In this document: piece by piece, positions 6,062 through 24,229 of the stretch
Position numbering within the stretch: the first letter of the stretch is position 1
How the letters are laid out: every line of letters starts with the position of its first letter
Made by a program: the position numbers and the translations under genes
The notes under the pieces: model-generated
Databases searched by the model: none
Told to the model about the DNA's origin: nothing
What the model saw: only the letters and a program-made list of their open reading frames with translations
DNA from: Bacteroidota bacterium
GTDB lineage: Bacteria > Bacteroidota > Bacteroidia > NS11-12g > UBA955
Assembly (NCBI GenBank): GCA_947496065.1
Contig: CANMBF010000026.1
Coordinates: forward strand, 1-37,425
DNA length: 37,425 bases
Direction of reading: 5' to 3'

Positions 6062-6108
6062 ATTTTTTATTATTTTCACTGTATTTTTTATTGGTTGATC
6101 TTTTCGAT

Positions 6109-7128: not shown

Positions 7129-8387
7129 ACCATTTGGTCGTTTAATGGTTCCAGGTTGCCGCCTATTTCAAGGCCTTTTATGTCTGCAATCGCACTGCCG
7201 GCAATCCCTTTAATACTGCCATACATTCCAACTGTATTGATAAGTACTTTTTCTATTTGCTTTTCTCTTTCTTTCCAAAGGCGTTCCATAGCAATTTTCT
7301 CGCGGGTGATTTCTGTTTTCAAACTCATGAACCCTTCTGAAATGGCCTCAATCTGATGTTTAAATTCATTGCCAGTTAAATAGTGGTATAACATGGTCAT
7401 TTTTTCGCCTTTGTTTTCTTGCGAAGCATTGGCCTCGCTAATTTTAATGAGCGTTTGACGGAGTATTAATGCGAGACTTCGCGCCTCGTGAAATTGACAG
7501 ATGTAAACCCCTTCCTTGATACCAAAACCTTCCATGTCTTTCGGCATGGCTTGGGTTACAATAACACCAACATCGCCACCACTTTGTCTGAAATCCGCTT
7601 TAAATTTTTCAATCCAAAGGGGTTGAAAATCCTTGGTGCGTTTACTCTCCCAAACAATCGTGCCACATGGTTGACCCAATCCATTCTTTACAGTTTGAAT
7701 TAAGTCGGCACCTTTAACCCCCTTCCCAACCTCGCTAATGTCATCGAAAGGGAAAATTTGTTTGAGCATTTCTTCTAATGCAAGCTCTTGCACTTCGCCT
7801 TGCATTTGCATACTGCCTTGTTCCGATTTGCGTTTCATTTCCTCAATCAATCGGTTCTGATCATCTATCTTTTTTTGAAATTCTTTTAAACGCATTTCAT
7901 TTTTTTGATCGGCCTCTTTGCCTATGCGTTCTTTTAATTCGTTCTCTTTTTCATGCAATAGTTTTTTGGTATCCAACTCATGTTGGTTTTCTAAATTTTT
8001 CATGCGTTGTTGAATTTCTAATTTCTCAACTTCGAGTTTGCGAAGGTTTTTTAATTTTTCTTCGTTCTCTTCATTTTGTTTTTTATAAAATTCTATTTGC
8101 AATTCATTCTCCTTTGTGAGTTTTGATTTAACTTGTTCCTCTACCTCTTTTTTTCTATTCGCGAGTTCTAAAGTTTGCTCCTCCAAATTTTGTTTACGTT
8201 CTGCTTCAATTTGAATTTTTTGAAGACGTATTTGTTCGTCTGATTTTGCCTTTTCAATGCTCCATTTTTCATTGAACTCGTTTTTTAGTTTTGCGCCTAT
8301 TTGTTTTTCAATATCGGCGGTAAGTGCACTCTCAATACTAAATTGGTGTTTGCATTTGGGGCATGTAACTTGGTTGTTCTGACTCAT
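7125..8387 (-). CDS. DUF2130 coiled-coil protein with N-terminal zinc ribbon
   Basis: 420 aa. A CPKC knuckle at residues 9-12 suggests a half zinc ribbon. Residues ~25-195 are highly charged (Glu/Lys/Gln-rich) and read as a long coiled coil. The C-terminal half holds the conserved DUF2130 core: TIVWESKRTKDF, LWIEKFKADFRQSGGDVGVIVTQ and GVYICQFHEARSLALILRQTL. The WESK/F-x-AD pattern resembles PD-(D/E)XK nuclease-like folds, a comparison made from memory only. It is the first gene of the minus-strand run and overlaps the mnmH start by 4 bp (GTGA). No function is established, and the link to selenium metabolism is positional only. Confidence 0.88.
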   Translation of the reverse strand: MSQNNQVTCPKCKHQFSIESALTADIEKQIGAKLKNEFNEKWSIEKAKSDEQIRLQKIQIEAERKQNLEEQTLELANRKKEVEEQVKSKLTKENELQIEFYKKQNEENEEKLKNLRKLEVEKLEIQQRMKNLENQHELDTKKLLHEKENELKERIGKEADQKNEMRLKEFQKKIDDQNRLIEEMKRKSEQGSMQMQGEVQELALEEMLKQIFPFDDISEVGKGVKGADLIQTVKNGLGQPCGTIVWESKRTKDFQPLWIEKFKADFRQSGGDVGVIVTQAMPKDMEGFGIKEGVYICQFHEARSLALILRQTLIKISEANASQENKGEKMTMLYHYLTGNEFKHQIEAISEGFMSLKTEITREKIAMERLWKEREKQIEKVLINTVGMYGSIKGIAGSAIADIKGLEIGGNLEPLNDQMV

Positions 8388-8584
8388 AAATTTAAAGGCA
8401 TACGAACCTACAATTATTTTTTGATTTTTTTTAAAGTTTGAAATGAGTTGGCGTTAAAAAACTACAAAAGCATATTGTTTTATTGAAATGAAGACGAAGT
8501 TTTCCAAACGATTAACGTTGATTTTCTATGGGACTGCAAAATGGTTTCGACTTATCCTGTTTTACTCTAATGGAGCATCAAGCA

Positions 8585-9469
8585 TTATTTTTTTTGCTTC
8601 TTGTCTCTTTCGATGAAGTGAATGATTTCTCCTGCAATATCTTTGCCAGTGGCCGCTTCAATGCCCTCGAGACCTGGCGAAGAATTAACTTCTATCACCA
8701 GCATGCCGCGTTCGCTTGGCAACATATCGACCCCTGCAATATTTAAGCCTAAGGCTTTCGCTGCTCTTATCGCCACTTCTTCTTCATCGTCGCTTAGTTT
8801 TACCACCTTGCTGCTACCACCGCGGTGTAGATTGCTTCTAAATTCATCTTCCTTGCCCTGCCTTACCATGGCACCTACAACTTTATCGCCCACTACAAAG
8901 GCGCGTATGTCGCTGCCCTTCGCTTCTTTTACAAACTCTTGTACCAAGAAGTTGGCGTTCATGCCATAGAATGCTTCTATGACACTCTTAGCGGCTTTTT
9001 TAGTTTCGGCCAACACAACGCCTAAACCTTGGGTACCTTCAATTAATTTTATAATTAAAGGGGCTCCACCCACTTGTTTGATCACGTGGTCGATATCATC
9101 TGGGTGACGGGCAAAGACGGTCTTAGGCAAAGCAATGTTTTCCATGCTGAGTAATTGCAATGTTCTTAACTTATCACGGCTGCGAACCAAAGCAGCAGCA
9201 GTTAACGAAGTATAAATTTTTTGTGCTTCGAATTGGCGAATAATGGCCGATCCGTAATAGGTAACTGAGGCGCCAACTCGCGGAATAACAGCATCAATGT
9301 CCAATAATGATTTATTGTTGTGAAAGATGGTAGGGGCCCCTTTTTCAATCACCACATAACAGTGGGTATGACTGATGATTTGGGCATTATGTCCCCTTGC
9401 CTCGGCGGCTTCTAGCAACCTTTTGGTTGAGTAGAGGCGAGGGTTGCGCGATAGTACAACAATGTTCAT
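8585..9469 (-). CDS. rimK: RimK-family alpha-L-glutamate ligase
   Basis: 294 aa, the standard RimK length. RimK is an ATP-grasp ligase that adds glutamates to the C-terminus of ribosomal protein S6 in gammaproteobacteria; the Bacteroidota substrate is not proven. Visible features are the N-terminal pre-ATP-grasp domain (MNIVVLSRNPRLYSTKRL), PRVGASVTYYG, RDKL, IIKLIEGTQGLGVV (ATP-binding lysine and Gly-rich loop), VQEFVKEAKGSDIRAFVVGDKVVGAM, NLHRGGS and the metal-binding end NIAGVDML...IEVNSSPGLEGIE. It starts 4 bp inside the end of the protease-like gene, so the two are translationally coupled. RimK and RimB pairs are known elsewhere to act together, which supports a shared modification role. 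Confidence 0.93.
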   Translation of the reverse strand: MNIVVLSRNPRLYSTKRLLEAAEARGHNAQIISHTHCYVVIEKGAPTIFHNNKSLLDIDAVIPRVGASVTYYGSAIIRQFEAQKIYTSLTAAALVRSRDKLRTLQLLSMENIALPKTVFARHPDDIDHVIKQVGGAPLIIKLIEGTQGLGVVLAETKKAAKSVIEAFYGMNANFLVQEFVKEAKGSDIRAFVVGDKVVGAMVRQGKEDEFRSNLHRGGSSKVVKLSDDEEEVAIRAAKALGLNIAGVDMLPSERGMLVIEVNSSPGLEGIEAATGKDIAGEIIHFIERDKKQKK

Positions 9470-9924
9470 GGCCTGTTATTTTTCTTTGTATTATATGACA
9501 GATTTTTTTGTGCAACATCGACAAGAAAATGTTGATGCAATAATTTTTTTCCAAGTAAAACGGGGAAGGTCATATCCGACCGATTGGCTAAAGAGAACTC
9601 TGATTCGATTGTTTCATTAAAAAGTTTGATTTTTAATTTTACAAAATAACGGTATTCTTTATCTCCAAAACTATTTTTAACTCGCTTCTCTTTGAATTGC
9701 GTTGTGGTACAATCTTTCTTAACATAGGCTTTGTGCTTTGGATCTAAAAGTCGAAAAACAAGCACATCTTCACCATTGATTTCTCTAATTCTTACACGGT
9801 GACAATGGATAGAGGAGGATTCTGCACCTGTGTCAATTTTGCAAACAATGTTCTCTAATCCCAATTCAGGAAAATCAATCTTATCCGAGTTGCCTACTAT
9901 TTTTTTATTCTTAAGCTTTACCAT
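9466..9924 (-). CDS. RimB/ATP-dependent zinc protease-like retropepsin-fold protein
   Basis: 152 aa. The motif DTGAESSS at 31-38 within CKIDTGAESSSIH is the retropepsin-like D-T-G-A signature of the RimB/DUF785 family, often annotated as ATP-dependent zinc protease. Further family features are PELGL, DKEYRYFVKLKIKLF, ANRSDMTFPVLLGKKLL and a C-terminal DVAQKN. Length is normal (140-160 aa) and there is no signal peptide. It overlaps rimK by 4 bp downstream and the ABC transporter by 14 bp upstream. In organisms with RimK, RimB partners trim or regulate polyglutamate tails on S6. That function is inferred here from context. Confidence 0.85.
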   Translation of the reverse strand: MVKLKNKKIVGNSDKIDFPELGLENIVCKIDTGAESSSIHCHRVRIREINGEDVLVFRLLDPKHKAYVKKDCTTTQFKEKRVKNSFGDKEYRYFVKLKIKLFNETIESEFSLANRSDMTFPVLLGKKLLHQHFLVDVAQKNLSYNTKKNNRP

Positions 9925-11740
9925 CGTTGTAGGTGTTGTACAATTTAAAATAAGGACCGCGCTTTTCCATCAATTCATTGTGGGCACCGCGCTCAATAAT
10001 AAATCCTTTGTCTAAAACAATGATTTCATCGGCATCTTGAATGGTTGTTAGACGGTGTGCAATGACCAATGTGGTGCGATCTTGTCTTAAATTATCAAGT
10101 GCTTGTTGTACTAATTTTTCACTCTCATTATCTAAAGCACTCGTAGCTTCATCTAATATCAAGACCGCTGGATTGCGCAGCAACGCACGCGCTATGGCAA
10201 TGCGTTGGCGTTGGCCACCGCTTAATTTACTGCCCCTTTCGCCTATGATGGTATCAAATCCGCGTTCAGATTGCATAATAAAATCATAGGCATTTGCCAA
10301 TTTTGCGGCTTTCTCTAAGTCGGCTTTGTTCACACCTTCTAATCCAAAAATAATATTGCTGGCAATGGTATCGTTAAATAGGATGGCTTCTTGCGAAACA
10401 ATGCCCATCATTGAACGCAAACTTTGAATAGAAAAGGATTTGATGTTCACGCCATCAATTAAAATTTCACCATTTTCTATGTCATAAAAACGCGGCAATA
10501 AATCGGCGATGGTACTTTTGCCGCTGCCACTTGCACCCACCAAAGCCACCTTTTTATTTTTAGGAACAGTAAAACTTATGCCGTGCAAAACAGTATCTAA
10601 TCCGTAAGCAAAATTAACGTTCTTGTATTCAATGGCGTGCTTTACATTTTTAACCTCAACAGGATTGGGTTGCTCATAAATTTTAATATCAGCATTTAAA
10701 ATTTCTTCATAGCGATCTAAACTTGCAGCGCCGCGTTGCACCATCGGGAATGCTTGTGAAAGCTGTTTAAAAGGCGGTATGACCTGACTGAATATGGCGA
10801 AGTAAGCCAAAAAAGCCGAACCTACCAATTGACCTTCGAATACCATGTTGCCGCCAAACCAAAGGATCACACCCGCAACAATGATGGCTAATGTTTCTGA
10901 AATAGGAGATGCCAAGTCACCGCGGTGGTTCACTTTGATATTGGCTAAGGTAGAACTGGCATTTAATGCATCGAATTTGTGCTTAAAGACTTTCTCTCCT
11001 ACAAATGCTTTGATGATGCGCATGCCGCCCAAAGATTCTTCTAAAAAGGAAAGGACATTGCTCTGTTGCTCTTGGTTGCGCTTAGATTTCCTTCGCAATG
11101 ATTTGCCAAGTAATGCGATTGAGCCTGCAGCAACGGGCAAAAGGCCAACCACAAAAAGTGTTAAGCCAGGACTCATATATACCAATGTGCCCACATAAAA
11201 AACAATGGTGACCGGCTCTTTAAACATCGCTTCTAATGAGGCCATCATGCTCCATTCCACTTCTTTCACATCGTTACTCATGCGCGATATTAAATCGCCT
11301 TTTTTCTCATTGCTAAAATAGGAGAGAGGCAGGGCTAATATTTTTTGAAAAATGTTTTTTCTAATATTTTCTATGCTTCTATTTCTTAAAATTACGAGAT
11401 AATATAAAGCCAAATAGCGCGCTATGTTTTTAATGATGGTGGCAATAATGAGCGCAATACAGATGAGCAGTAACGCTTGCTTTTTATCATTTTGAACATA
11501 CTCTGTCATCCATTGAATGAAGGCATTGTACATTGAAGTAAAATCGGTGCTTGAACCAGCGTCGATGGCACGCGGTTTAATCGCTTCTTTATTGTTGTTA
11601 AACATAAAGTCGAGCAAAGGCATGAGCAAACCTAAAGAAAACAAACCAGCTAAAATCTGAATTAAGTTAAATAACATGTTAAGCGCTGCCAGGCCTTTAT
11701 AGGGCAGGATAAGGAGAATAATGCGCTTCATTGCTTTCAT
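9911..11740 (-). CDS. ABC exporter, fused permease-ATPase (MsbA-like)
   Basis: 609 aa half-transporter. Residues 1-330 form the transmembrane domain with about six hydrophobic segments. The nucleotide-binding domain has Walker A GASGSGKST at 402-410, the Q-loop near VSQEAILF, signature LSGGQ at 506-510, Walker B LILDE at 527-531 and the H-loop in VIAHRLT. The layout matches MsbA/LmrA-type homodimeric exporters. A lipid A-core or phospholipid substrate is common for Bacteroidota relatives but cannot be read from sequence. Its final codons overlap the start of the RimB-like gene by 14 bp (ATG inside the last four codons), so the three genes form one translation-coupled block. Confidence 0.92.
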   Translation of the reverse strand: MKAMKRIILLILPYKGLAALNMLFNLIQILAGLFSLGLLMPLLDFMFNNNKEAIKPRAIDAGSSTDFTSMYNAFIQWMTEYVQNDKKQALLLICIALIIATIIKNIARYLALYYLVILRNRSIENIRKNIFQKILALPLSYFSNEKKGDLISRMSNDVKEVEWSMMASLEAMFKEPVTIVFYVGTLVYMSPGLTLFVVGLLPVAAGSIALLGKSLRRKSKRNQEQQSNVLSFLEESLGGMRIIKAFVGEKVFKHKFDALNASSTLANIKVNHRGDLASPISETLAIIVAGVILWFGGNMVFEGQLVGSAFLAYFAIFSQVIPPFKQLSQAFPMVQRGAASLDRYEEILNADIKIYEQPNPVEVKNVKHAIEYKNVNFAYGLDTVLHGISFTVPKNKKVALVGASGSGKSTIADLLPRFYDIENGEILIDGVNIKSFSIQSLRSMMGIVSQEAILFNDTIASNIIFGLEGVNKADLEKAAKLANAYDFIMQSERGFDTIIGERGSKLSGGQRQRIAIARALLRNPAVLILDEATSALDNESEKLVQQALDNLRQDRTTLVIAHRLTTIQDADEIIVLDKGFIIERGAHNELMEKRGPYFKLYNTYNDGKA

Positions 11741-11802
11741 ATGCAGGCAAATTAACTACTTTTTTAAATCAAATAAGATTAAATTTTGATGAAGGAATGA
11801 AA

Positions 11803-13002
11803 TCAATAGGCGTAATCGGCCAAGTACTCGTAGTCGTGAGTGAGTTGTCCATTGGTGCAGATGGTTGCGGCATGAATGATGGGACTATTGGGTTTCATCA
11901 ATTCAGGAATCACATAATCAATCAGCATTTGACCAAAACCTTCGCTGGCATCTTTGGGCAATTCGGTTGGCAAATTACTTACCGCCATAATATCGATGCT
12001 ATCGATTTGATAGGGTTCGCAAACATCCATGGTGGTTGGACTGAATCCAAAAACGGGGTCGGTGATTTTGGTATCTTTTAAAGTAATGGGCACGCTGCCA
12101 ACAATGTCGCAACTTATATCGGCAATTACTTTTGTTTTAAACGTTGGCAATCGGGTTTCATTGGCTGCAAAAAGGCGGTCCATTTTATGGTCCCAATAGA
12201 TGCCGTTCATTAACAAATCGCAAAAGGGTAGGTAGTAGCGGAACACACAACGGTAGCGGGTAGGGTCGTGGTGAAAATCGCTGCGGTCGTAGGGCTTGCC
12301 ATCTATCCGTTCATATAAATTTTCGGTAAGCAATTCAGCAAATACAGGTTCTGCAAATATTTTAGTGAGTATATCGGCCGCTGTTACTTGTTTGATGCCG
12401 GCTTCTTTTAATAATTCGAGTGCGCCTAAAGATACACGGCCATTGCCCGTAAGGATAATTTTAATATTCGATAGTTTTAATTTTTTTAGTTCGCGTTTTA
12501 CTTCTGCATAATCGTGGCAGAGGTAGGCTGGTTTTAAATCAAAAGCATTGTATTTTTTACCCCAAGTCAATAAGCCATTATAAGCACCAACAATACCTGC
12601 AAAGCGACCGAAACCTAGCACACGGTCACCGTTTTTCCAACGCAGGGTTTCATAATCGATCATGGTAATTTGCTTCTGAATCAAAGCATGCATCAAGTGT
12701 TTGTTATGCGCTTGTTTTTTGATAGTATGCGAAAAGAACAAATATTTTTTACTGGGAATAAGCGCTTCGGCAGGCACTTCTTTAATACCCAGTAGATAGT
12801 CGCAATCGCTGATGTCTTCTTTAATTGTAATACCAACCTTTGCATAGAGTTCGTCGGCAAAGCAACGCTCTGGCGAGGGTTGTATGTAAATTTCAATCGA
12901 AGGGAATTGGTCTTTGATAGCCACACATTGAGCCGGTGTAAAGGGAACACGTTTATCGGAAGGTAATTTTTCTTCGCGCAGAATACCGAATTTTAAATTC
13001 AT
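11803..13002 (-). CDS. LYS1-like NAD-dependent dehydrogenase (saccharopine/alanine dehydrogenase superfamily)
   Basis: 399 aa. The order of motifs follows yeast saccharopine dehydrogenase (lysine-forming): GIKEVP with Lys74, FSHTIKKQ with His92 (corresponding to the catalytic Lys/His pair), IDYETL, GFGRFAGIVGAYNG, a Rossmann loop GNGRVSLGALELL near 186-198, IADISCDIVGS, and SNLPTELPKDASEGFG near the end. The fold belongs to the AlaDH/PNT superfamily. Oxidative deamination of an amino-acid adduct is the likely chemistry, but whether the substrate is saccharopine is unproven. The gene is monocistronic and divergent from ssrA. A TATCTTTG -7 box lies only about 12 bp before its ATG, giving a very short leader. 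Confidence 0.8.
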   Translation of the reverse strand: MNLKFGILREEKLPSDKRVPFTPAQCVAIKDQFPSIEIYIQPSPERCFADELYAKVGITIKEDISDCDYLLGIKEVPAEALIPSKKYLFFSHTIKKQAHNKHLMHALIQKQITMIDYETLRWKNGDRVLGFGRFAGIVGAYNGLLTWGKKYNAFDLKPAYLCHDYAEVKRELKKLKLSNIKIILTGNGRVSLGALELLKEAGIKQVTAADILTKIFAEPVFAELLTENLYERIDGKPYDRSDFHHDPTRYRCVFRYYLPFCDLLMNGIYWDHKMDRLFAANETRLPTFKTKVIADISCDIVGSVPITLKDTKITDPVFGFSPTTMDVCEPYQIDSIDIMAVSNLPTELPKDASEGFGQMLIDYVIPELMKPNSPIIHAATICTNGQLTHDYEYLADYAY

Positions 13003-13156: not shown

Positions 13157-13522
13157 GGGGCTGACTGGAATTGACGGGCAGAGCAACTGAGATGTAAGCA
13201 TGTAGCGCTTTGTTTGCTGGCGCTCTAATCTCAACATTCAAAATTTTAAGAGGCGACAATAACTTCGCAATGGCTGCCTAATCTAGGATTAAGCAACGCT
13301 ATCCATCTTCGGTGCCTTTGTTTGGGTCGGTGCCGGGTTAAGATGGTCGACAGACCTGAATATCTACTAGGAGCGGTTGCGGCTTAATAGATTACAAAGC
13401 AACATAAGGTTTTGAAATGGTAGGTGGTAAACCGTTCAACGCCCGAAAATAATTACTACTAAACATGTAGAAAGCGTTATCATTTCCTGCTCCGGACCAG
13501 GGTTCGACTCCCTGCAGCTCCA
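13157..13522 (+). ncRNA. ssrA: Transfer-messenger RNA (tmRNA)
   Basis: One-piece tmRNA of about 366 nt. The 5' end GGGGCUG pairs with 3' CAGCUCC (13515-13521) to form the alanine-tRNA-like acceptor stem, and the T-arm GGUUCGACUCC is visible at 13501-13511. The tag reading frame at 13252-13281 gives GDNNFAMAA followed by TAA, ending in the Ala-Ala degron typical of SsrA tags. The mature 3' CCA is not encoded: after the discriminator A the DNA continues CAAC, so CCA must be added. tmRNA with SmpB rescues stalled ribosomes and tags the nascent chain for proteolysis. A strong terminator follows directly. Confidence 0.96.
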
Positions 13523-13535
13523 CAACTTTTTTTTG

Positions 13536-14171: not shown

Positions 14172-14894
14172 ATGGAACATTTAAAAATCGCAAGCGATAA
14201 TTACGTAGCATTTACGTTTTTTATCGGAACAATGGCCATGATGGCCGCTTCAGTTTTCTTTTTCTTTGAGTTGAACAACACGTCAGCTAAATGGAGAACA
14301 TCAGTTTTGGTTTCTGGATTAATTACCTTCATCGCAGCAGTGCACTACTACTACATGAGAAGTTACAATTTAGAAACAGGTGATTCACCTACATTCTTCA
14401 GATATGTAGATTGGATTCTTACAGTACCTTTGATGTGTGTTGAATTTTACTTAATTACCAAAAAAGCAGGTGCTAAAATTGGCTTATTATGGAAATTAAT
14501 TTTCGCTTCACTAGTAATGTTGGTTACAGGTTACTTTGGCGAAACATTGGACAGAGACAACAGTGTTATGTGGGGCGTTATATCTGGTGCTGCGTATTTT
14601 TATATTGCATACTTGGTATGGTTTGGTGAGGTTGCCAAACTTTCTCAAACAGCTGGACCACAAGTTGCGAAAGCAACTAGAATACTAGCTTGGTTTGTGT
14701 TAGTAGGTTGGGCTATTTATCCTTTAGGTTATATCCTTGGTACTCCAGGTGGCTTATTCGGTTTACAATTAGTTTCTGATCCTGCTGCTGCATCTCATGC
14801 AATGGATATTGTATATAACATTGCTGACGCAGTTAACAAAATTGGATTTGGTTTGGTTATTTATTCATTAAGTAGAACAACAGAAGAAGCTTAA
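14172..14894 (+). CDS. Proteorhodopsin, light-driven outward proton pump, predicted green-absorbing
   Basis: 240 aa with seven membrane helices. Helix C reads RYVDWILTVPLMCVE, giving Asp80 (proton acceptor), Thr84 and Glu91 (donor): the DTE pump motif of proteorhodopsins. His58 matches the acceptor-partner histidine. The retinal lysine is Lys223 in NIADAVNKIGFG. The spectral-tuning site (position 105 in green proteorhodopsin) is Met88, which in Bacteroidota goes with green absorption. In helix E, aligning FYIAYLVWFG with bacteriorhodopsin places Gly135 (SVMWG) at the position of Trp138; glycine there opens the 'fenestration' used by carotenoid antennae in xanthorhodopsin. There is no cleavable long signal. 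It is followed by its own terminator, and the retinal-forming fusion gene lies 116 bp downstream. Confidence 0.96.
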   Translation: MEHLKIASDNYVAFTFFIGTMAMMAASVFFFFELNNTSAKWRTSVLVSGLITFIAAVHYYYMRSYNLETGDSPTFFRYVDWILTVPLMCVEFYLITKKAGAKIGLLWKLIFASLVMLVTGYFGETLDRDNSVMWGVISGAAYFYIAYLVWFGEVAKLSQTAGPQVAKATRILAWFVLVGWAIYPLGYILGTPGGLFGLQLVSDPAAASHAMDIVYNIADAVNKIGFGLVIYSLSRTTEEA

Positions 14895-15010: not shown

Positions 15011-17041
15011 ATGAAGCAAGAATTAATAGTCGATTTCACTTTCATTGGCATGGGAGCAAGCAATTGTTTAATTCTTAAATCATTGATTGAGCATGGACAG
15101 TTAAAGCATAAAAATATTGCAATAATTGAATCAGATTCTAAAACTACCAACGATAAAACCTATTGCTTTTGGGCTACCCCCGATGAATCGATAATCGGTG
15201 AATTAAAGCCACTGATTTCTCACCAATACCAAGCCATTGAAATTAATCAATTGCCAAAGCAGAACATAATAAAGCAACCGTATTTTTATATTAAAAGTAT
15301 CGACCTTTACAACTATGCTGCTGAGTTAATTTTAAAATCCCAAATTCCCATTTTTAGAAATGAAGTAAAGGATTTAAAATATAAGGATGGTATTGCCTCT
15401 ATTATTACTAGCGAAAGTATTATTTTTTCACACTATGTTTTCGATAGTAGGCCTCCTTCCTTTTCTGATTTAAAAAAGAATGATTTATATTTAAATCAAT
15501 CCTTTTATGGTCTTCATGTAAAATGTGAGAAGGCTGTGTTTAATGAGGAAACATTTCAGATGATGAATTTTAATGTAGATCAGAATGAATTCACGCAATT
15601 CAATTACATACTGCCGTTTTCACCATACGAAGCTTTGATTGAACTGACCCGTTTTGGCACAAAGAAAATTGATAATGCCTACGCCAAATCAATTTTAACG
15701 GATAAAATATTAAATGATTTCGGTCCATTCGAGATTTTAGACGAAGAAACAGGATGCATTCCAATGACAACCTATTTAACAGAAGCTAACGAACACCCTA
15801 CTATTTTGAACACGGGTGCGCGAGCAAACCTTATTAAACCCAGTACCGGTTATGGATTTAAAAATATGTTTGAATTTTCAAAAATCGTAACGCATCGCTT
15901 GGCATCGGGTGATTTGAATAATTTTAATCAAATCGCGCTTCCAAGCAAAAACAGATTTAAATTTTATGATTATTTATTGCTTTTTATTTTAATTAAATGG
16001 CCATATCTTGGTAAGTCAATCTTTTCAACCTTGTTCAAAAAGCAAAACATAAAAACCGTCTTCGCATTTTTAGATGAAAAAACCAGCCTTTTGCAAGAAA
16101 TGAAAATTTTTGCAAAGTTGCCTTTCAAACCTTTTCTCTGTGCTGCCTTTATATATTTTTGGAAACACATTCAAAAACGCTATTTTTATGCAACTTTACT
16201 CGTATTGGTTTATTGTCTGCTTCATTTTTTTAGTGCATCTCTTGCAAAATATTTTGGCAACTTTGCAGTGATTATAGGTTTGCTATTGGTTGGTATTCCG
16301 CATGGTGCTGTTGATCAATATTTGCAAGGCGCTAAGGACAAAAAACAACACACTCTATTTATTTTAAAATACCTTGTTTTAATAGGGTTATTTTACTTGT
16401 TATGGCAATTTCTTCCTTTGCTTTCCTTTGTTTTTTTTATTTTGTATTCAGCTTTTCATTTTGGGGAATCAGAGTTAGAAGATGCCAATGTAAGTCTAGA
16501 TTCAATACGTAATAAATTTAATGCATTTCTTTTGGGTTTATCGATATTAGTATTGATAGTTTTTACCCATCTAACAGAATCGCAAATGATTATTTTAAAA
16601 ATGACACAAATCCAAATTTTTAGGTTCGGTGCCTCCTCTCAGTACATTGGAATCACTGTGTCATTAACAACGCTATTGTTTGTGATGTTTCGGTACAATA
16701 TGCTAAGTAAAAATAAGGCCATTGGAATAATAACTTTGTTGTTTTTAGGGGTTTTAACACCTTTAGAATTTGCTTTTGCATTGTATTTTATTGGTCAACA
16801 TAGTTTTAATGCTTGGCAGCATATTAAAACTCGTTTAACAATAGGGTCATTTGCCTTATACAAAAAGGCTTTGCCATATACCATTGGTGCATTTGTGATT
16901 TTCTTATTTATGCTAATCTATAGCAATGAACTATTAAGTTTAAACAAGAATTATTTGGCACATTTCTTTATTTTCCTGGCTTGTATTAGCTGCCCGCATT
17001 TTATTTTTATGCACTTGTTTTATAAAAATAAGAATGTTTAG
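15011..17041 (+). CDS. Fused lycopene beta-cyclase (CrtY) - beta-carotene 15,15'-dioxygenase (Brp/Blh)
   Basis: 676 aa, two full-length enzymes in one frame. Residues 1 to ~383 are a CrtY-type cyclase: an N-terminal Rossmann segment FIGMGASN (11-18, with Asn where the third Gly of GxGxxG is usual), KTYCFW (49-54), LPFSPYEALIELTRF, and TGARANLIKPSTGYGF (268-283). Residues ~390-676 are a membrane-embedded Blh domain with conserved histidines: GIPHGAVDQ (His431), SAFHFGES (His483), FIGQHSFNAWQH (His597, His604) and CPHFIFMH (His663, His668). The protein should close the rings of lycopene and cleave beta-carotene to two retinals, feeding the rhodopsin upstream. crtE, crtB and crtI are not in the window. 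No frameshift or internal stop marks the junction. Confidence 0.93.
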   Translation: MKQELIVDFTFIGMGASNCLILKSLIEHGQLKHKNIAIIESDSKTTNDKTYCFWATPDESIIGELKPLISHQYQAIEINQLPKQNIIKQPYFYIKSIDLYNYAAELILKSQIPIFRNEVKDLKYKDGIASIITSESIIFSHYVFDSRPPSFSDLKKNDLYLNQSFYGLHVKCEKAVFNEETFQMMNFNVDQNEFTQFNYILPFSPYEALIELTRFGTKKIDNAYAKSILTDKILNDFGPFEILDEETGCIPMTTYLTEANEHPTILNTGARANLIKPSTGYGFKNMFEFSKIVTHRLASGDLNNFNQIALPSKNRFKFYDYLLLFILIKWPYLGKSIFSTLFKKQNIKTVFAFLDEKTSLLQEMKIFAKLPFKPFLCAAFIYFWKHIQKRYFYATLLVLVYCLLHFFSASLAKYFGNFAVIIGLLLVGIPHGAVDQYLQGAKDKKQHTLFILKYLVLIGLFYLLWQFLPLLSFVFFILYSAFHFGESELEDANVSLDSIRNKFNAFLLGLSILVLIVFTHLTESQMIILKMTQIQIFRFGASSQYIGITVSLTTLLFVMFRYNMLSKNKAIGIITLLFLGVLTPLEFAFALYFIGQHSFNAWQHIKTRLTIGSFALYKKALPYTIGAFVIFLFMLIYSNELLSLNKNYLAHFFIFLACISCPHFIFMHLFYKNKNV

Positions 17042-17571
17042 TTAAGGAAAAAGTCAATTCCTTATCATACTGAAATCAGATTGCTTTGAAGTTTTTAGCG
17101 TTCAATTGCAGTATGACTGATTTTGACACATAACCTCCAATTGATGGTGTCTTAATTTCTGTATTTAAAATATTGCCGTCCGCTTCCGCACGAGCATTAC
17201 AGTTTTCATCTCTAGATTAACTTAAATAGAGCTAAATTGCTTTCGATTATTTTTTCAATACCACCCTGCAAAGTATCATCTTATTCAAGAATTCTATTTT
17301 AAAAGAATATGAATCAATGAATTTGCAAAAATCATTGATTTTTTAATTTCAATTTGTATGAATTATTTTTCTAACTTAGAATTAATGCGAATGGTTATTT
17401 AAAGTGCAAATTCCCGAATATAGAAATTGCATTATTGTAATATTTGCAAAATTCACTATTGTCCTAATTAAATTCAGTTATTTTATTTGTTACTAATTGT
17501 TTAATCTTGTTTAACCATTGTCAAAGGATTAGAATATCGGACAATACATTAAAACAACAATAGCCACTATT
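17042..17571. other. 530-bp spacer between the retinal gene and the ole-like operon
   Basis: No intact gene. A weak stem TAAGGAA/TTCCTTA (17043-17064) follows the fusion gene but lacks a T run. On the minus strand 17076-17216 is open for 46 codons without a start, and coding-like residues continue in another frame up to about 17290; this may be the remains of a decayed gene. 17300-17571 is AT-rich and presumably holds the operon promoter, but I see no TAnnTTTG box. Confidence 0.4.
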
Positions 17572-18447
17572 ATGAATAATGAATTAGCTGAAAGATTAAT
17601 TAAAATCAGTATTGATAATCCCCTTCTTCCAGAGACCTTTATTCCATGGGAAGAAACATTGGGTTTAAACGATGTTTATTTGCCACCTTACCTGGTTTCG
17701 CTATACGATACGCCATTTTTTGAAACCCTAACGCCAATTCAAAAAACTGAGCTTGCTAAAAGAGAAACGTGTCAGGTGATGTATGCCTATGCGTGGAGCG
17801 AAACATTGTTTTGTCAATTTATTACCCGCAGATTACTTACCATTGATCCAGCTGGTTGGGAACATAAATTTTTATTGAGAGAACTCATTGAAGAATGTAG
17901 GCATCAAGAGATGTTTACAAGGGCCATAGAGAAATTAAATGTGAAGGCCATTACGCCGGGATTCTGGCACCGTTTTTTCGGAAATTTTACAGTTAAGTTA
18001 ATGCCACACGATGCCGTTTTTATGTCGTGTTTAGCGGTAGAATTAATGGCCGAAATTTATGCAGCGCATTATAGAAAGGCCGATAATGTTTATATTGTTC
18101 TTAAAAAAGTGTCGCAATTGCATCATATTGAAGAAGCAAGACATATTTTATTTACCGAAGAGTTGCTAAAAGACTACACCATGAAGGCAGGTTTTATTAA
18201 GCGAACATGGTATAGTACACTTGTTATGCTCAATATTTATTTTATGAGAACAATGTATGTGAAAAAAGAAATTTTCAGCGCTATAGGAATATCTGACCCT
18301 AAGGTTTATAAAATGGCACAAAAAAATTTCAAGAAAAATTTTGGAATCCATTGTTTAGGAAAGTCCGTTGAATTTGTTCAAGGATTTAATGGTTTTAATT
18401 TTATTACCCGTCCAATGTGGCGATTATTTTTAAATGCCAATGTTTAA
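17572..18447 (+). CDS. AurF-like diiron oxygenase
   Basis: 291 aa, soluble, helical. The ligand pattern of the AurF (p-aminobenzoate N-oxygenase) family is complete: Glu77 in AWSETLF, Glu108 and His111 in EECRH, Glu157 or Glu161 in VELMAEIYAAH, and His184, Glu188 and His191 in HHIEEARH. The family uses O2 at a diiron centre, mainly to oxidise arylamines, but many members have unknown substrates, including in lipid pathways. It is the first gene of a four-gene operon and overlaps the KAS III gene by 14 bp. It most likely oxidises an acyl or amine intermediate of that pathway; this is an inference. The ATG at 17572 follows a long AT-rich leader. Confidence 0.88.
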   Translation: MNNELAERLIKISIDNPLLPETFIPWEETLGLNDVYLPPYLVSLYDTPFFETLTPIQKTELAKRETCQVMYAYAWSETLFCQFITRRLLTIDPAGWEHKFLLRELIEECRHQEMFTRAIEKLNVKAITPGFWHRFFGNFTVKLMPHDAVFMSCLAVELMAEIYAAHYRKADNVYIVLKKVSQLHHIEEARHILFTEELLKDYTMKAGFIKRTWYSTLVMLNIYFMRTMYVKKEIFSAIGISDPKVYKMAQKNFKKNFGIHCLGKSVEFVQGFNGFNFITRPMWRLFLNANV

Positions 18448-19435
18448 TATTCATATTACTGCCATCAATACTTATTTGCCTAAGAAAAGGGTATCTACAG
18501 AAGAAATAAGTAAAAAAATTAATGCGCCAGATACGCTAATTACCGAGAACGCCCTTATTCGTTTGTTTGGGGTAAAGTATCGGCACATAGCAGCAAACGA
18601 TGAACAGGTTTCTGACATGGCAGTTGCAGCTGCTTTGCCAATTGTCGAAAAAGCAGGAAGAGAGACAATAGATTTAATGATTTTTGCTGCGGCTTCTTCA
18701 GATCTTATTGAACCGGCTACAGCTAATATTATTCAACAAAAACTCAATTTGACATGCCCGGTTTTCGATGTGAAGAATGCCTGCAACAGTGTTATTACAG
18801 CGCTCGATATTGCAAAACAATACATTGGCAATGGAACGTATAAAAAAGTACTAATTGTAAATGGAGAAAAACTAAGTGACTCGGTACAATATAACTTTTT
18901 GAATAAAGAGGAACTTGGCGAGCATTTGGCTGCCTATAGTTTTGGTGATGCTGGAGCCGCACTGCTTGTAGAACCTTGTCCAGCGGATAAGGGAATTATG
19001 TTTCAGAAAATATACAGTCGCGGGGAATATTGGAAATTGTGTACAATTAAAGGTGGCGGAAGTATGCATCCTCACGATGCTTCTAAACTTTATTTTACAG
19101 GTTTTACAAGTGAATTAAAAGATGCTTTTATGAAAGAATTTCAAAGAGAATTAGTACTAAGTAAAGATTTTATTGATATTATTTTTCCGCGCATCAAATG
19201 GGTCTTTACACATCAAGTATCCCTGTCTTCGTTCGAAGCCATTGCAAAAACGGCAGGCATAAGTACGGATAAATTTATTAGCGTGGTTGAAGAGTATGGC
19301 AATTGTGCTGCCGCCTCAATACCTCTCGCAATTCAAAAGGCTATTAATAATCATCAGCTAAAATCTGGTGATGATATTCTAATCATTGGACTTGGGTCGG
19401 GCTTAGCGTTAAGCATTACTTATATGGTTTGGTAG
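18434..19435 (+). CDS. KAS III / OleA-like thiolase-fold condensing enzyme
   Basis: 333 aa. The catalytic triad is visible: Cys117 in FDVKNACNS, His260 in WVFTHQVS and Asn290 in EYGNCAAASIP. The C-terminal GDDILIIGLGSGLALS is also typical of the FabH/OleA superfamily. The NAC context around the cysteine is closer to OleA-type acyl-acyl condensing enzymes than to housekeeping FabH (usually SAACSG). In OleA the reaction is head-to-head Claisen condensation of two fatty acyl-CoAs. The first ATG (18434) overlaps the oxygenase gene; Met3 at 18440 is an alternative start. One base separates its stop from the ligase ATG, so expression is coupled. The FabH-like versus OleA-like choice is moderately supported by the neighbours. 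Confidence 0.88.
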   Translation: MPMFNIHITAINTYLPKKRVSTEEISKKINAPDTLITENALIRLFGVKYRHIAANDEQVSDMAVAAALPIVEKAGRETIDLMIFAAASSDLIEPATANIIQQKLNLTCPVFDVKNACNSVITALDIAKQYIGNGTYKKVLIVNGEKLSDSVQYNFLNKEELGEHLAAYSFGDAGAALLVEPCPADKGIMFQKIYSRGEYWKLCTIKGGGSMHPHDASKLYFTGFTSELKDAFMKEFQRELVLSKDFIDIIFPRIKWVFTHQVSLSSFEAIAKTAGISTDKFISVVEEYGNCAAASIPLAIQKAINNHQLKSGDDILIIGLGSGLALSITYMVW

Positions 19436-19436
19436 T

Positions 19437-20972
19437 ATGGATAAGGTAATACTTTATCAATCTACTTTGGTGAATGCCTTGGTTCATTTAAATGAAACCC
19501 ATCCGCATAATTTGATCATTGAAGAAGGTAAAAGAGCATATACTGTTCACGAGCTTTATAATTACGCTTTGCATTTAGCGAAAGGAATGGCTAAAAAAGG
19601 GGTGAGGCAACATTCGCGAATTGTAATAGCAATGCCGCCAAGTTTTCTGTTTTTGGCTTATATAATTGCTTGCACTATGAATGCTGCCACAATTGTTTTA
19701 ATCGACCCGGAAATGGGTAGGGAGAATTATCTTTCAAAATTGAAACAAATCAATCCGCAATTTGCAGTTTTAGATAAACGCTTATTACTTTTTCAAGAGC
19801 ATCCCATTATTAAATTTTTGGCACTTAAGTTTAAAGGAAACATTCCTAGTTTTCCTCATATAAAAGGGTTGACCTATTTTACAGATAATACCTATTGGCC
19901 GATTTTGAAAACATACCATTCTGCTCTTAAGTTAAATGAATTTGGAAAAAAAATTGAGGTAGAATGGCTAGTTGTAGATGAAAAAAACGATGCATTTATC
20001 GTCTATACAAGTGGCACATTGACGATACCCAAAGGGGTTGTGCATAGTTACGAAAGTTTCAACGCATCGATTAATGACCTTAGCAAAGTATTTGATTTTA
20101 ATGGTTTGAGGATAGGGGCAAGCTTGCCTCATTTTGTTTTTTTAGCCATCGCTTGTCAAGCCACTGCTGTTATAATGCCAAGTTTAAAATCCCATGAAAA
20201 GAAGTTGGCTTTTATTAGAAATAATAAAATTGAAGTTTTATTTGGCCCTCCATCAGATTTTAAGGGGTTAATTGAATACAGTAAACAAAGCAATACTCTC
20301 TTGCCAAGCACACTAAAATATATGCTTTTAGGTTCGGCACCTGTTCTGCCTAATTTTCTGAAACAGTTAATAGAAGTTACCGATTCTAAAACGGCTATAT
20401 TTTGTATTTATGGTATGACCGAACATTTATTTACTGCCTATGTTGATGCCAGAGAAAAAGTCAACCATACCTATCGCCACGATTGGTTAGGTGCTTTCGT
20501 TCAACCAGTAGAATATAAAATTGAAAAGGATGGTGAATTGCTAATTAAAGGACCGCAACTTTTTAAGTATTATCTTCATTTAAATTCGAGAACAGATTTT
20601 CATGCAACAGGTGATTTGGTAAAGGTGCAAGACGGTCAATTATTTTTAACGGGCCGTAAAAAAAATATGTTAATTCGCAGGAATTTTAATATTTATCCTG
20701 AACTTTATGAGCAAACCATTATGAAAATTAAGGGTGTTAATGAAGCAGTAATGGTTGGTATTTATGACGAGGCTTTAAATGATGAAAAAATTATTTTGGT
20801 GGTAGATGCCAACATCGAAAAACAAAAATTAATGCGACTGCTAAACAATGGCGAATTCAGTATTGATAAGGAAGCCTTACCAGATGATATTCTGTTTATG
20901 AGCGTCCCCCATTCAGGACGGCAAAGCAAGGTGAATAGAAATGCGTTAATTGAAAAATTAAAACAAAAATGA
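19437..20972 (+). CDS. Class I AMP-forming ligase, OleC-like
   Basis: 511 aa, ANL superfamily. The motifs run in order: a P-loop-like A3 YTSGTLTIPKG (190-200), A5 IYGMTEH (324-330), A7 TGD (391-393), A8 hinge GRKKNMLIRRNFNIYP (406-421) and the C-terminal catalytic Lys498 in SKVNR. The usual S/T-T-G inside A3 is replaced by T-L-T, losing one glycine. It lies between an OleA-like and an OleD-like gene, the position of OleC, which turns a 2-alkyl-3-hydroxyacid into a beta-lactone. Plain fatty acid-CoA or -ACP ligase activity is the alternative. It overlaps the downstream SDR by 4 bp. Confidence 0.87.
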   Translation: MDKVILYQSTLVNALVHLNETHPHNLIIEEGKRAYTVHELYNYALHLAKGMAKKGVRQHSRIVIAMPPSFLFLAYIIACTMNAATIVLIDPEMGRENYLSKLKQINPQFAVLDKRLLLFQEHPIIKFLALKFKGNIPSFPHIKGLTYFTDNTYWPILKTYHSALKLNEFGKKIEVEWLVVDEKNDAFIVYTSGTLTIPKGVVHSYESFNASINDLSKVFDFNGLRIGASLPHFVFLAIACQATAVIMPSLKSHEKKLAFIRNNKIEVLFGPPSDFKGLIEYSKQSNTLLPSTLKYMLLGSAPVLPNFLKQLIEVTDSKTAIFCIYGMTEHLFTAYVDAREKVNHTYRHDWLGAFVQPVEYKIEKDGELLIKGPQLFKYYLHLNSRTDFHATGDLVKVQDGQLFLTGRKKNMLIRRNFNIYPELYEQTIMKIKGVNEAVMVGIYDEALNDEKIILVVDANIEKQKLMRLLNNGEFSIDKEALPDDILFMSVPHSGRQSKVNRNALIEKLKQK

Positions 20973-21949
20973 AAGTTGTCATTACTGGTGCAACAGGATT
21001 TGTAGGGGCTCACTTGGTGCGTTACTTTTCAGAAATGGGATTTGAAGTTATTGCTCTTGGCAGAAGTTTAAAGCCGCCAAAAAATTTATTAAAATTTGCA
21101 AGTTACAAGTCATTTGATTTTGAAGATGAAATTAATACTGAAAAAATCGAAGCTGATGTTTGTATTCATGCGGCTGCTTTAACTGATACCCGATGTTCAT
21201 TCAATAAAATGATGGCAATAAATGTTCGGGGGACAGAGAAATTATTGTCCATCGTAAATTGTAAGCAATTTATTTACATTTCTTCTTCGTCTGTATATCA
21301 ATCTGGTTTTGATCAAACAGAAGCTATGGCGAATGCAATTGATAAAGCCCATTTATCGAATTATGGAAAAAGCAAACTTTTAACTGAACAGTTATTAACC
21401 AATAATTTTGAAAAGGGACTAACTAGCTTTCAAACGTTGGTAATTTTTCGACCAAGGGCCATCTATGGAAAGGGCGATCGCACATTACTCCCTAAATTAT
21501 TGAGATTGGTAAAAAACAATCGGTTGTTTTGGCCTGGCAAAAAATATGTGCCATCCACTATGACCCATATCGATAACCTTTGTTACGCCTGTGGTTTGTC
21601 CATTGATAGATTAAAAACAGATTGCCATGTTTTTAATTTAGGAGATAATCAAGTTTATAATTTATTTGAAGTTGTAAAAAGTTTAAATGAAAATATAAAA
21701 CGAAAAAAATTAAAATCTGTTATGCTTCCTGCCGGTTTTTTATTGCCTGTTTTGAAATTTATTTATGGAAACAACAGTCGATATTTTGAATTGATGCAAT
21801 TAAATGCGCCACTTACATTGGATTTATCATACCTAAGGCGTGTCTTAAACTATGATACTGAACGAACCTTTTCTGCAAGTGAAATTGGGGACTGGTACCA
21901 TGACACTAAAGTGGAAAATACAAATCCACTGAATTGGCCTTGGATTTAG
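20969..21949 (+). CDS. NAD(P)-dependent epimerase/dehydratase-type SDR, OleD-like
   Basis: 326 aa extended short-chain dehydrogenase. The nucleotide-binding TGATGFVG is at 6-13, the catalytic Tyr132 and Lys136 are in YGKSK, and a serine cluster SSSS lies at 105-108. RPRAIYGKGDRTLLPKLL matches the 3-beta-HSD/OleD-like 'RPxxIYGxGD' block. OleD reduces the 2-alkyl-3-ketoacid made by OleA to the hydroxyacid used by OleC, which fits this gene order. It is the last gene of the operon and is followed by a strong terminator. General sugar-nucleotide epimerase activity is less likely given the neighbours. Confidence 0.88.
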   Translation: MKVVITGATGFVGAHLVRYFSEMGFEVIALGRSLKPPKNLLKFASYKSFDFEDEINTEKIEADVCIHAAALTDTRCSFNKMMAINVRGTEKLLSIVNCKQFIYISSSSVYQSGFDQTEAMANAIDKAHLSNYGKSKLLTEQLLTNNFEKGLTSFQTLVIFRPRAIYGKGDRTLLPKLLRLVKNNRLFWPGKKYVPSTMTHIDNLCYACGLSIDRLKTDCHVFNLGDNQVYNLFEVVKSLNENIKRKKLKSVMLPAGFLLPVLKFIYGNNSRYFELMQLNAPLTLDLSYLRRVLNYDTERTFSASEIGDWYHDTKVENTNPLNWPWI

Positions 21950-21977
21950 GTATTTATTATTTTAGTTTTGATAAACA

Positions 21978-22012
21978 AAAGCCAAGCACTTTTTATAAGT
22001 GCTTGGCTTTTT
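21978..22012. terminator. Strong, possibly bidirectional terminator
   Basis: A 14-bp perfect stem AAAGCCAAGCACTT / AAGTGCTTGGCTTT with a 5-nt loop. It has T on the plus side and AACAAAA before the stem (TTTTGTT on the minus side). It closes the ole-like operon and could also stop minus-strand transcription from the T9SS fragment. Confidence 0.9.
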
Positions 22013-22033: not shown

Positions 22034-22312
22034 TTATTCTTTTAGCAATTTGGCGTAGTAAATTTGATCACCTTGCGCAATGCGAACAAAATAGATGCCG
22101 TTGGTATAAGCACTCAAATCGATCATCGCTTGGCCATTGATGTCCGCCATTTTAATAACCTGACCCATGCTGTTTAAGATAGTCAACTTAGTTGACGAGT
22201 TGTTTTTTAATTGCAACTTGAATACACCATGACTCGGATTTGGATAAATCACAAATGCATCGTTTGTAATTGGCTTAAAGTTTAAGCATACGATAGATGG
22301 GCTTATTCTCAA
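22034..22312 (-). pseudogene. Orphan T9SS type A C-terminal sorting domain (gene remnant)
   Basis: 92 codons, of which about 75 form a complete type IX secretion C-terminal domain: FVIYPNPSHGVFKL, LTILNSMGQVI, IDLSAYTNGIYFVRI and a final YYAKLLKE. Such tails normally follow a large secreted cargo. Here the open frame begins only 14 codons before the domain, with TTG as its sole start candidate and a TAA three codons further upstream. No signal peptide or cargo is present. It is therefore most likely the 3' end of a deleted or decayed secreted-protein gene. Confidence 0.7.
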
Positions 22313-22810: not shown

Positions 22811-24229
22811 ATGAGATTTACAATTCAAACAAAACTAACAAGCACAGTTGGAATGGCGCTTTTGTTGGCGGGACTATTTTCAATGTCTGCTTGCAAAAAG
22901 GAAGCCGTTACGCAATTAATGCCAACCGAACCTACCGCCTTAGCGGGCGACCCAAATGCAGTGGTTATGATGACTGCAGGTGCTAACTACATGCCAAACG
23001 AAGTGTTGGTAAAATTCAGAAAAGGCACAAGTCCTACCAATAAAGGTTTAGCCATTGCAAGAATGAGAGCAACTGTTCAAGAAGTTATTTTAACAAAAGC
23101 AATGCAAGCATCTGGCGAAACAGAGGGTATTTATTTGATGAAAATGCCTATTGGTGTAATGGAAGCCATTCAAGGATTTAAAAATTTACCGGAAGTTGAA
23201 TATGCGGAGCCTAACTTTATATATACGCACTGCGCTTCTTCTAATGATCCCTACTTTACTAATGGAAGTTTATGGGGTATGTATAGCATCGGTTCAACAC
23301 CTGCCAATGCCTATGGCGTGTCAGCTGTAACTGCATGGGCCAATGGTAAAATAGGTTCTAACGAAGTAATTATTGCCGTAATTGATGAAGGTATTATGAA
23401 TATACATAAAGATTTGGCAGCCAATTGTTGGATTAATCCATATGATAATTTTGGAGATAATATTGACAACGATGGCAATGGTTACAAAGATGACAAATGG
23501 GGTTGGGACTTTGCAGGCAATAACAACACAACATACGATGGTCCTGCTGACAATCATGGAACGCACGTAGCAGGTACAATTGGTGCAGTAGGTGGCAATG
23601 GTATAGGCGTTGCAGGTGTTAATTGGAATATCAAAATGATTAGCTGTAAGTTCTTAGGTTCAACTGGTGGAACCACTGCCAATGCAATTAAAGCAATTGA
23701 CTATGTGACGAACCTTAAAAAAGTTAAAAGTTTAAACATTGTGGCAACCAACAATTCTTGGGGTGGCGGTGGCTTCTCTCAATTATTAAAAGATGCTATT
23801 GATAGAGCTGATGCTCAAGATATTTTGTTTGTAGCAGCTGCAGGTAACAATGGTGGTAATAATGATGTTGTTGCATCTTATCCTGCAAGCTATACAAGTG
23901 CCAATGTTATTGCCGTTGCCGCAATAGATAACACTGGTAAATTGGCTAGCTTCTCACAATATGGTGCAACTTCTGTAGATATTGGTGCACCTGGAGTAGG
24001 TATCTTTTCAACCCTTCCAACGTCTAAAAATACTTCAACATACGGTTCATACAATGGAACTTCAATGGCAACACCACATGTGACTGGTGCAGTAGCTTTA
24101 TATGCGTCATTGCATGCAGGAAGCACAGCAGCTCAAATTAAAACAGCTGTTTTAGGCTCAGCGGTTGCAACAGCATCGCTAACAGGTAAATGTGCAACTG
24201 GTGGAAGAGTTGATGTAAGTAGTTATTAA
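22811..24229 (+). CDS. S8 family serine peptidase (subtilase) lipoprotein
   Basis: 472 aa. The signal peptide ends in the lipobox SMSAC (Cys28), so it is lipid-anchored. A propeptide-like region follows (MPNEVLVKFRKG... near 60-140). The subtilisin catalytic triad is complete: Asp192 in AVIDEG (Glu follows instead of the common Thr/Ser), His249 in NHGTHVAGT and Ser418 in GTSMATPH. The oxyanion Asn lies in AAAGNNGG near 343-348. The protein ends soon after the catalytic domain and has no T9SS tail. Calcium-binding-like NDGNGYKDD lies around 220-228. It is monocistronic with its own terminator, and the role is probably general proteolysis at the cell surface. Confidence 0.94.
   Translation: MRFTIQTKLTSTVGMALLLAGLFSMSACKKEAVTQLMPTEPTALAGDPNAVVMMTAGANYMPNEVLVKFRKGTSPTNKGLAIARMRATVQEVILTKAMQASGETEGIYLMKMPIGVMEAIQGFKNLPEVEYAEPNFIYTHCASSNDPYFTNGSLWGMYSIGSTPANAYGVSAVTAWANGKIGSNEVIIAVIDEGIMNIHKDLAANCWINPYDNFGDNIDNDGNGYKDDKWGWDFAGNNNTTYDGPADNHGTHVAGTIGAVGGNGIGVAGVNWNIKMISCKFLGSTGGTTANAIKAIDYVTNLKKVKSLNIVATNNSWGGGGFSQLLKDAIDRADAQDILFVAAAGNNGGNNDVVASYPASYTSANVIAVAAIDNTGKLASFSQYGATSVDIGAPGVGIFSTLPTSKNTSTYGSYNGTSMATPHVTGAVALYASLHAGSTAAQIKTAVLGSAVATASLTGKCATGGRVDVSSY

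Follow-up and report, generated by a model that had tools for sequence, protein, structure and literature searches.

What does a bacterium make with an operon that sets an AurF-type diiron oxygenase beside relatives of OleA, OleC and OleD, and holds no OleB? The question is raised by a 37,425-nt stretch of DNA from a Bacteroidota bacterium (contig CANMBF010000026.1), referred to here as the window, in which such a four-gene cassette occupies positions 17572–21949. With modest confidence, we favor an Ole-type (head-to-head beta-lactone) lipid pathway of four enzymes that includes its own oxygenase. A prior sequence-only reading of the window had described four tightly packed genes, and its layout proved exact: the oxygenase and ketoacyl-ACP synthase III (KAS III) genes overlap by 14 bp, a 1-bp gap precedes the ligase gene, and the latter overlaps the gene for a short-chain dehydrogenase/reductase (SDR) by 4 bp. 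The genes, with the evidence behind each name, are as follows.

17572–18447, plus strand: AurF-type diiron oxygenase, first gene, 291 amino acids (aa); PF11583 at 128.5 bits, predicted fold, ligand residues
18434–19435, plus strand: OleA-like KAS III condensing enzyme, 333 aa; Glu-Pro motif, catalytic residues, tree
19437–20972, plus strand: adenylate-forming ligase, OleC-like by context, 511 aa; PF00501, PRK09274, motifs, altered A8 region
20969–21949, plus strand: OleD-like SDR reductase, 326 aa; NCBIfam OleD NF042422 as top model, Y132/K136

The Pfam assignments of the four proteins were PF11583 (AurF), PF08545/PF08541 (KAS III), PF00501 (AMP-binding) and PF01370/PF01073 (SDR).

According to PMC7064751, a Glu117-proline pair sets OleA apart from other thiolases; it is found in all but two OleA proteins of that study, and the glutamate, which is donated across the dimer, is essential in Xanthomonas campestris OleA. 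Residues E93-P94 of the window KAS align with the pair. Glu-Pro occupied this site in all 21 cassette KAS proteins and in OleA of PDB entry 3row, which we take to be the X. campestris enzyme, and was absent from four solved FabH proteins and from 25 KAS III paralogues, these last drawn from 19 of a set of 20 close genomes; the source genome itself holds a separate KAS III (L002) with F-P at the motif site. Among six further KAS III proteins, four carried Glu-Pro: the L121 OleA, which belongs to a complete oleABCD cluster on a Streptomyces plasmid, one Paraburkholderia protein, and two Rhodococcus proteins encoded next to each other on a plasmid. The catalytic Cys-His-Asn residues of the cassette enzymes (C117, H260, N290) were invariant (19 of 19).

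Phylogeny gave the same picture as the motif. In a 53-protein tree, which leaves out RhodKAS2, the partial PAR_L111, L011 and the broken L080, a branch with support of 100/99 parted the cassette KAS and OleA from all FabH proteins, with which the Runella KAS and one Streptomyces KAS also fell. A 33-row tree (6 of the 25 paralogues, L124 added, three other long rows dropped) separated cassette KAS and OleA from FabH with support of 100/100; OleA lies on a long branch in these trees, and its exact position within its side is unsure. The OleA-like character proposed in the sequence-only reading is thus upheld, and we classify the cassette KAS as OleA-like on its motif and tree placement, with Glu93 of the neighboring subunit as its putative base by likeness to OleA.

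The SDR was likewise assigned as first proposed. Its best NCBIfam model was OleD (NF042422, 73.8 bits), the model matched by the most cassette SDRs (all 15 of those aligned), and Y132 and K136 of the YxxxK motif were invariant, which characterizes it at the level of sequence as OleD-like. The absence of OleB also withstood a search: at an E-value of 1e-3, OleB was found neither among the open reading frames (ORFs) of the cassette loci nor, with L121 OleB as query and in a search without its own control, in the 96.6%-complete source genome. The same query retrieved itself in a separate search of the cassette genomes, where nine of the 18 others held some alpha/beta hydrolase at 1e-5 (best 35% identical), and a distant OleB is possible there. 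The cassette is thus Ole-type, without OleB beside it.

The oxygenase scored 128.5 bits on PF11583 against a cut-off of 29.6. Its predicted fold (predicted local distance difference test, pLDDT, 90.3) was closest to AurF 2jcd (TMq 0.70) and CmlI 5hyh (0.67); AurF/CmlI chains filled the first eight rows of the fold search (0.48–0.70), followed by aldehyde-deformylating oxygenases (ADOs), of which the cyanobacterial ones among the first 50 rows scored 0.41–0.49, with two rows lower. Residues E77, E108, H111, E157, E188 and H191 were kept in all 25 aligned rows and H184 in 24, the exception being a shortened Cesiribacter copy; by their spacing, which is that of the AurF ligands, these seven positions are presumably the diiron ligands. 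A sequence-profile search of solved structures with the oxygenase matched no solved AurF at E-values up to 1. The model and the full ligand set identify it as a predicted AurF-type enzyme that shares Pfam family, fold and ligand residues with the arylamine N-oxygenases AurF and CmlI, and differs from them in lying among lipid-condensing genes and in its 10–13% identity in structural alignments.

To determine how widely the cassette occurs, the gene order was sought in one genome per species across 84,980 species, using a pattern scan seeded with a three-row AurF alignment; the scan needs two peptide patterns, so that AurF relatives without them would be missed. It returned 83 relatives, and the analysis went on with the best 80 of them. 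A KAS gene directly followed AurF in 20 of these 80 loci, and all four genes stood in the window order in 17, including L012, where a contig end cuts the SDR gene, and L080, whose ligase is split over two frames; the three partial cassettes comprised two that end at a contig edge (L013 and L074) and one without an SDR match (L071). Carriers included Adhaeribacter, Dyadobacter, Saprospiraceae/Saprospirales, Chitinophagales/Chitinophagaceae, metagenome-assembled genomes of Flavobacteriia/Flavobacteriales, and two further Bacteroidetes. Identity to the window proteins was 43–59% for AurF (18 aligned), 38–51% for KAS (18), 37–42% for the ligase (16) and 29–37% for the SDR (14), and the pairwise distances of the four proteins were correlated (Spearman 0.41–0.80, n = 15–19, with no more than 8 of 2000 permutations reaching such a value). 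The cassette is a real conserved unit whose order is kept across distant Bacteroidota.

Among near relatives of the source genome it is rare. Searches found no good AurF match in 96 other relatives, 16 of them of the same genus (a single weak one at 8e-4), no cassette ligase in 96 relatives at 1e-30, and no cassette KAS in 295 other genomes of the phylum at 1e-40. In a phylum sample of 395 genomes including the source, AurF was matched in four: the source, two at 49–52% identity with no cassette gene within 1.5 kb on either side, and one with weak matches. A plasmid or viral origin of the cassette AurF was considered and rejected; viral contigs held no relative, and only 11 of 72,556 plasmid records did, all actinobacterial at 22.6–26.8% identity.

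The oxygenase also occurs by itself. The remaining 60 of the 80 loci had AurF without the cassette KAS, and in 41 of these at least 3 kb was available on both sides. In an 83-row AurF tree, the 58 stand-alone AurFs formed one group (SH-like approximate likelihood ratio test, SH-aLRT, 94), next to which stood the Cesiribacter copy and the Adhaeribacter cassettes; the root is unsure, given a very long branch to the outgroup. For 24 of these 60 loci, a search of the genome for the cassette KAS gave a best KAS III score of at most 111 bits vs. 284–729 in three positive controls. AurF thus persists without cassette-type KAS and can serve a purpose where there is no OleA chemistry. This pattern is in line with an enzyme for a common substrate, acyl or other, and counts against a lactone decarboxylase.

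The ligase is the least clear-cut of the four proteins. PRK09274 matched all 17 cassette ligases with the lowest E-value among models, ranked third for the window protein, and was the top model of the Streptomyces L121 OleC (441 bits). The motifs DPxMG, YTSG, YGMTE and GD and the C-terminal lysine were invariant in the cassette ligases, the lysine in 17 of 17. All 17 also shared an altered A8 region, RxxxN(I/L/V)YPx(L/I)YE, without the GEN or the E(I/V)E of the GEN..P.E(I/V)E form found in FadD13, MenE and a Sphingobium ligase. In coenzyme A (CoA) ligases, the CoA arm passes along the A8 region; loss of the usual A8 letters would be in keeping with catalysis independent of CoA, as we suggest for the cassette ligase. 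The predicted fold (pLDDT 87.1) is the general ANL fold, and its Foldseek matches included CoA ligases, non-ribosomal peptide synthetase (NRPS) adenylation domains and amide-bond synthetases alike. The OleC-like label is a putative one, given by context.

Several known systems resemble the cassette. The closest in logic is a cluster of Actinoplanes atraurantiacus, described in PMC7064751 as OleA, glycosyltransferase, OleC, P450 and OleD, for which the authors proposed a P450-hydroxylated, glycosylated beta-lactone product. This cluster was compared by its published description, and sequences were compared with a cluster on Streptomyces viridifaciens plasmid pKVP2 (L124, 11977–17180), annotated just generically in its record, that has the same domain set: a Glu-Pro KAS, a family 2 glycosyltransferase (GT2), a ligase, a P450 and an OleD-like SDR. 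Its ligase carries the A8 region RRARNIYPGLYE, of the RxxxNIYPxLYE type seen in the cassette, and pKVP2 was, out of 72,556 plasmid records, one of only two with a match to the window ligase at 1e-15. Identity between window and L124 over aligned parts was 34% for KAS, 31% for the ligase and 28% for the SDR; window proteins scored higher to L124 than to L121 for the ligase (123 vs. 71 bits) and SDR (102 vs. 77) and equally for KAS (190 and 192). Both actinobacterial sets share with the window OleA-, OleC- and OleD-like enzymes plus an oxygenase, without OleB. They differ in using a heme P450 in place of an AurF-type diiron protein, in having a GT2, which is absent from the window cassette, and in belonging to Actinobacteria rather than Bacteroidota.

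Canonical oleABCD clusters are more distant. The L121 cluster, on plasmid p1 of Streptomyces sp. BHT-5-2, encodes KAS, an alpha/beta hydrolase, an OleC-type ligase (403 bits) and an OleD-type SDR (321 bits). Such clusters, represented here by X. campestris OleA and L121, share with the window a Glu-Pro KAS (34% identity between the window KAS and L121 OleA), an OleD-type SDR and an adenylating ligase, whereas the window cassette lacks OleB, adds an oxygenase, and has a ligase and SDR far from canonical OleC and OleD (71 and 77 bits to L121). Beta-lactone pathways of the oleACD type without OleB are described in PMC7064751 for Streptomyces toxytricini and Nocardia brasiliensis, with a two-chain OleA, LstA plus LstB, for lipstatin. 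Condensation, reduction and a ligase without a decarboxylase are common to these and the window cassette. To our knowledge, no diiron oxygenase takes part in the lipstatin or nocardiolactone pathways. The sequence-only reading knew of no described pathway with exactly this set, which is only nearly right; the A. atraurantiacus set of PMC7064751 follows the same logic with a P450. By title and the start of the abstract, a search of mostly open-access literature found no paper on an AurF-type gene with Ole genes. The cassette is an oxygenase variant of an OleB-less Ole-type set already described with a P450.

From the gene set, its order and conservation, the OleA-type active site with its Glu-Pro motif, the tree, the AurF-type ligand set and fold, and the lack of OleB beside the cassette, all of which are observed, we infer the reactions, their order, the product and its role. 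The OleA-like KAS would condense two acyl thioesters, with Glu93 of the neighboring subunit as the base, to a 2-alkyl-3-keto acid, which the OleD-like SDR would reduce to the 2-alkyl-3-hydroxy acid. The ligase would then adenylate this acid and close a beta-lactone without CoA. The AurF-type enzyme would oxygenate (or desaturate) an acyl chain, most likely before condensation, in the role proposed for the actinobacterial P450. A beta-lactone is the expected end point because there is no OleB, and the product would be an oxygenated long-chain beta-lactone.

Several points weigh against this proposal. On family models, the window KAS ranked first with FabH (PRK09352 184, fabH 169 and PRK09258 142 bits), and its top solved relative by sequence was a FabH, 4ryb; with a profile of 19 cassette KAS proteins 4ryb still led (202 bits), but OleA 3row rose to 166, level with the other FabH chains (next 168). 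The two Rhodococcus plasmid proteins and the Paraburkholderia KAS III have Glu-Pro without ole genes among their annotated neighbors, so that the motif alone is not proof of OleA. NCBIfam cut-offs were far from reached, at 73.8 vs. 580 bits for the OleD model (L121 OleD, 321) and 73.6 vs. 900 for OleC, a mark that the L121 OleC, at 403, does not reach either. Generic models were slightly ahead for the window ligase (PRK06187 128.3, MenE 128.7, PRK09274 122, OleC 73.6 bits), and a ligase tree held three outside ligases only, one in duplicate, too few rows to separate OleC from acyl-CoA ligases. Known AurF-family reactions are mostly on nitrogen, as with AzoC and DnfA. Finally, in PMC7064751, A. 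atraurantiacus OleA was active on a test ester, with scant protein recovered and no Claisen product in vitro.

The modest score on PRK09258, which we take to be the OleA model (its NCBI name is 3-oxoacyl-ACP synthase III), is not counted among these points. The window KAS misses its curated cut-off of 285 bits (141.9), and we regard that cut-off as too strict because L121 OleA, from a complete oleABCD cluster, scores just 141.6. A PRK09258 search of 198 genomes of the phylum at 1e-60 gave no match and left control genomes likewise unmatched, and is uninformative.

The alternative that survives best keeps KAS and SDR as in Ole and makes the ligase an acyl activator that hands its acyl group to CoA, a carrier or another acceptor, giving an ester, amide or ketone-type lipid on which AurF would act, perhaps on nitrogen like AurF itself. 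The lead of PRK06187 and MenE over OleC, the C-terminal lysine kept in every cassette ligase, and Foldseek matches that take in amide-bond synthetases and NRPS adenylation domains as well as CoA ligases would all suit it, as would the Runella locus described below, where AurF and SDR relatives adjoin a GH3-type protein and a metallo-hydrolase. We nevertheless consider it unlikely, since PRK09274, the top model of the Streptomyces OleC, had the lowest E-value in all 17 cassette ligases, since their A8 region and that of L124 differ from three CoA-ligase-type sequences, and since no acceptor gene recurs near the cassette at ORF lengths from 80 aa upward, a count that a small carrier protein could escape.

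The sequence-only reading had suggested that the oxygenase might modify the acyl chains or replace OleB; the former fits better. Replacement would mean oxidative removal of the carboxyl or lactone carbon to give an olefin or other hydrocarbon, a proposal prompted by the presence of AurF and not OleB in the cassette and by the rank of the alkane-making ADOs as the next structural group after AurF/CmlI. It is quite improbable, because the 24 searched genomes with stand-alone AurF have no cassette-type KAS and would lack the OleA-derived lactone as substrate, and because AurF/CmlI chains reach a TMq of 0.70 whereas the cyanobacterial ADOs among the first 50 rows do not exceed 0.49. Another reading, a FabH-type starter KAS in an operon for an ordinary fatty-acid variant, was suggested by the best-scoring FabH models and structure 4ryb. 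It is most improbable and was rejected on the Glu-Pro motif and both trees, with the separate F-P KAS III in the same genome also against it.

Around the cassettes, recurring neighbors were counted in the window, the 20 cassette loci, a Runella locus (L073) and a Cesiribacter locus (L077), with 80 aa as the minimum ORF length and a family being taken to recur if present in at least three loci. Five further families did so: a START-domain family, two confined to three Adhaeribacter loci, a second SDR family and a subtilase. The START-domain family was found in L010, L011 and L014 (Adhaeribacter, after the SDR gene), L073 and L077, with PF01852 in the L010 and L077 copies. Subtilase-like genes, named by eye, lie 3' of the cassette in L010 (15968–16876), L011 (15662–16876) and the window (22811–24229); this recurrence may be due to chance, such proteases being common. 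The Cesiribacter locus (8001–9776) has a shortened AurF with a ligand change from H to Y, a 147-aa C-terminal piece of an SDR and a START gene, and no KAS or ligase match, and looks as a decayed cassette would. In the Runella locus (4580–11918), the SDR and AurF genes are accompanied by a KAS III that lacks Glu-Pro, a GH3-type protein and a protein of metallo-beta-lactamase fold; a probable START-domain gene on the opposite strand was clustered with the other START genes. The locus perhaps represents a different pathway using the same oxygenase.

Two further features bound the operon in the window.

17042–17571, no strand assigned: 530-bp gap before the operon, presumed promoter region, which separates it from the upstream CrtY-Blh fusion gene
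21977–22011, no strand assigned: probable terminator, a perfect inverted repeat (15-bp arms, 5-bp loop, T-rich end), from a direct sequence check

The inverted repeat probably closes the operon; a consensus scan did not report it. The 530-bp gap has no match to the Bacteroidetes promoter motif TTG-N18-24-TAnnTTTG or to TAnnTTTG, and hence no promoter is claimed.

Elsewhere in the window, a rhodopsin gene (14172–14894, PF01036) upstream of the cassette adjoins an ORF (15011–17041) in which lycopene cyclase and Blh beta-carotene dioxygenase are fused (PF05834 + PF15461), placing an opsin beside retinal synthesis. A functional tie of these genes to the cassette was rejected; no ORF in the compared loci is related to either, and they are taken as chance neighbors. 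Downstream, a 92-aa ORF on the minus strand (22034–22312) consists of nothing but a type IX secretion sorting tail (PF18962) and, with stop-rich preceding frames, looks like all that is left of a former gene. Farther away are a transfer-messenger RNA gene (13157–13523, tag GDNNFAMAA) and, near each other at 4081–5070 and 6109–7128, SelD-like and selenouridine-synthase-like proteins assigned by eye.

An Ole-type pathway with its own oxygenase would mean that family-model cut-offs have overlooked a Bacteroidota lineage of pathways to beta-lactones or closely related lipids, and that a Glu-Pro KAS beside a ligase with RxxxNIYPxLYE could serve as search markers. We put forward only tentatively, as a possibility, that oxygenated long-chain beta-lactones occur phylum-wide but patchily in Bacteroidota, with AurF oxidizing an unactivated acyl carbon and not nitrogen where actinobacteria use a P450, so that the oxygenase would be exchangeable around a kept OleA/OleC/OleD core. 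C–H oxidation of fatty chains would then join the repertoire of a family whose known reactions are mainly N-oxygenations. Since beta-lactones are reactive and inhibit enzymes, the product could be a defense compound; the START lipid-binding gene near the Adhaeribacter cassettes would also fit a membrane lipid.

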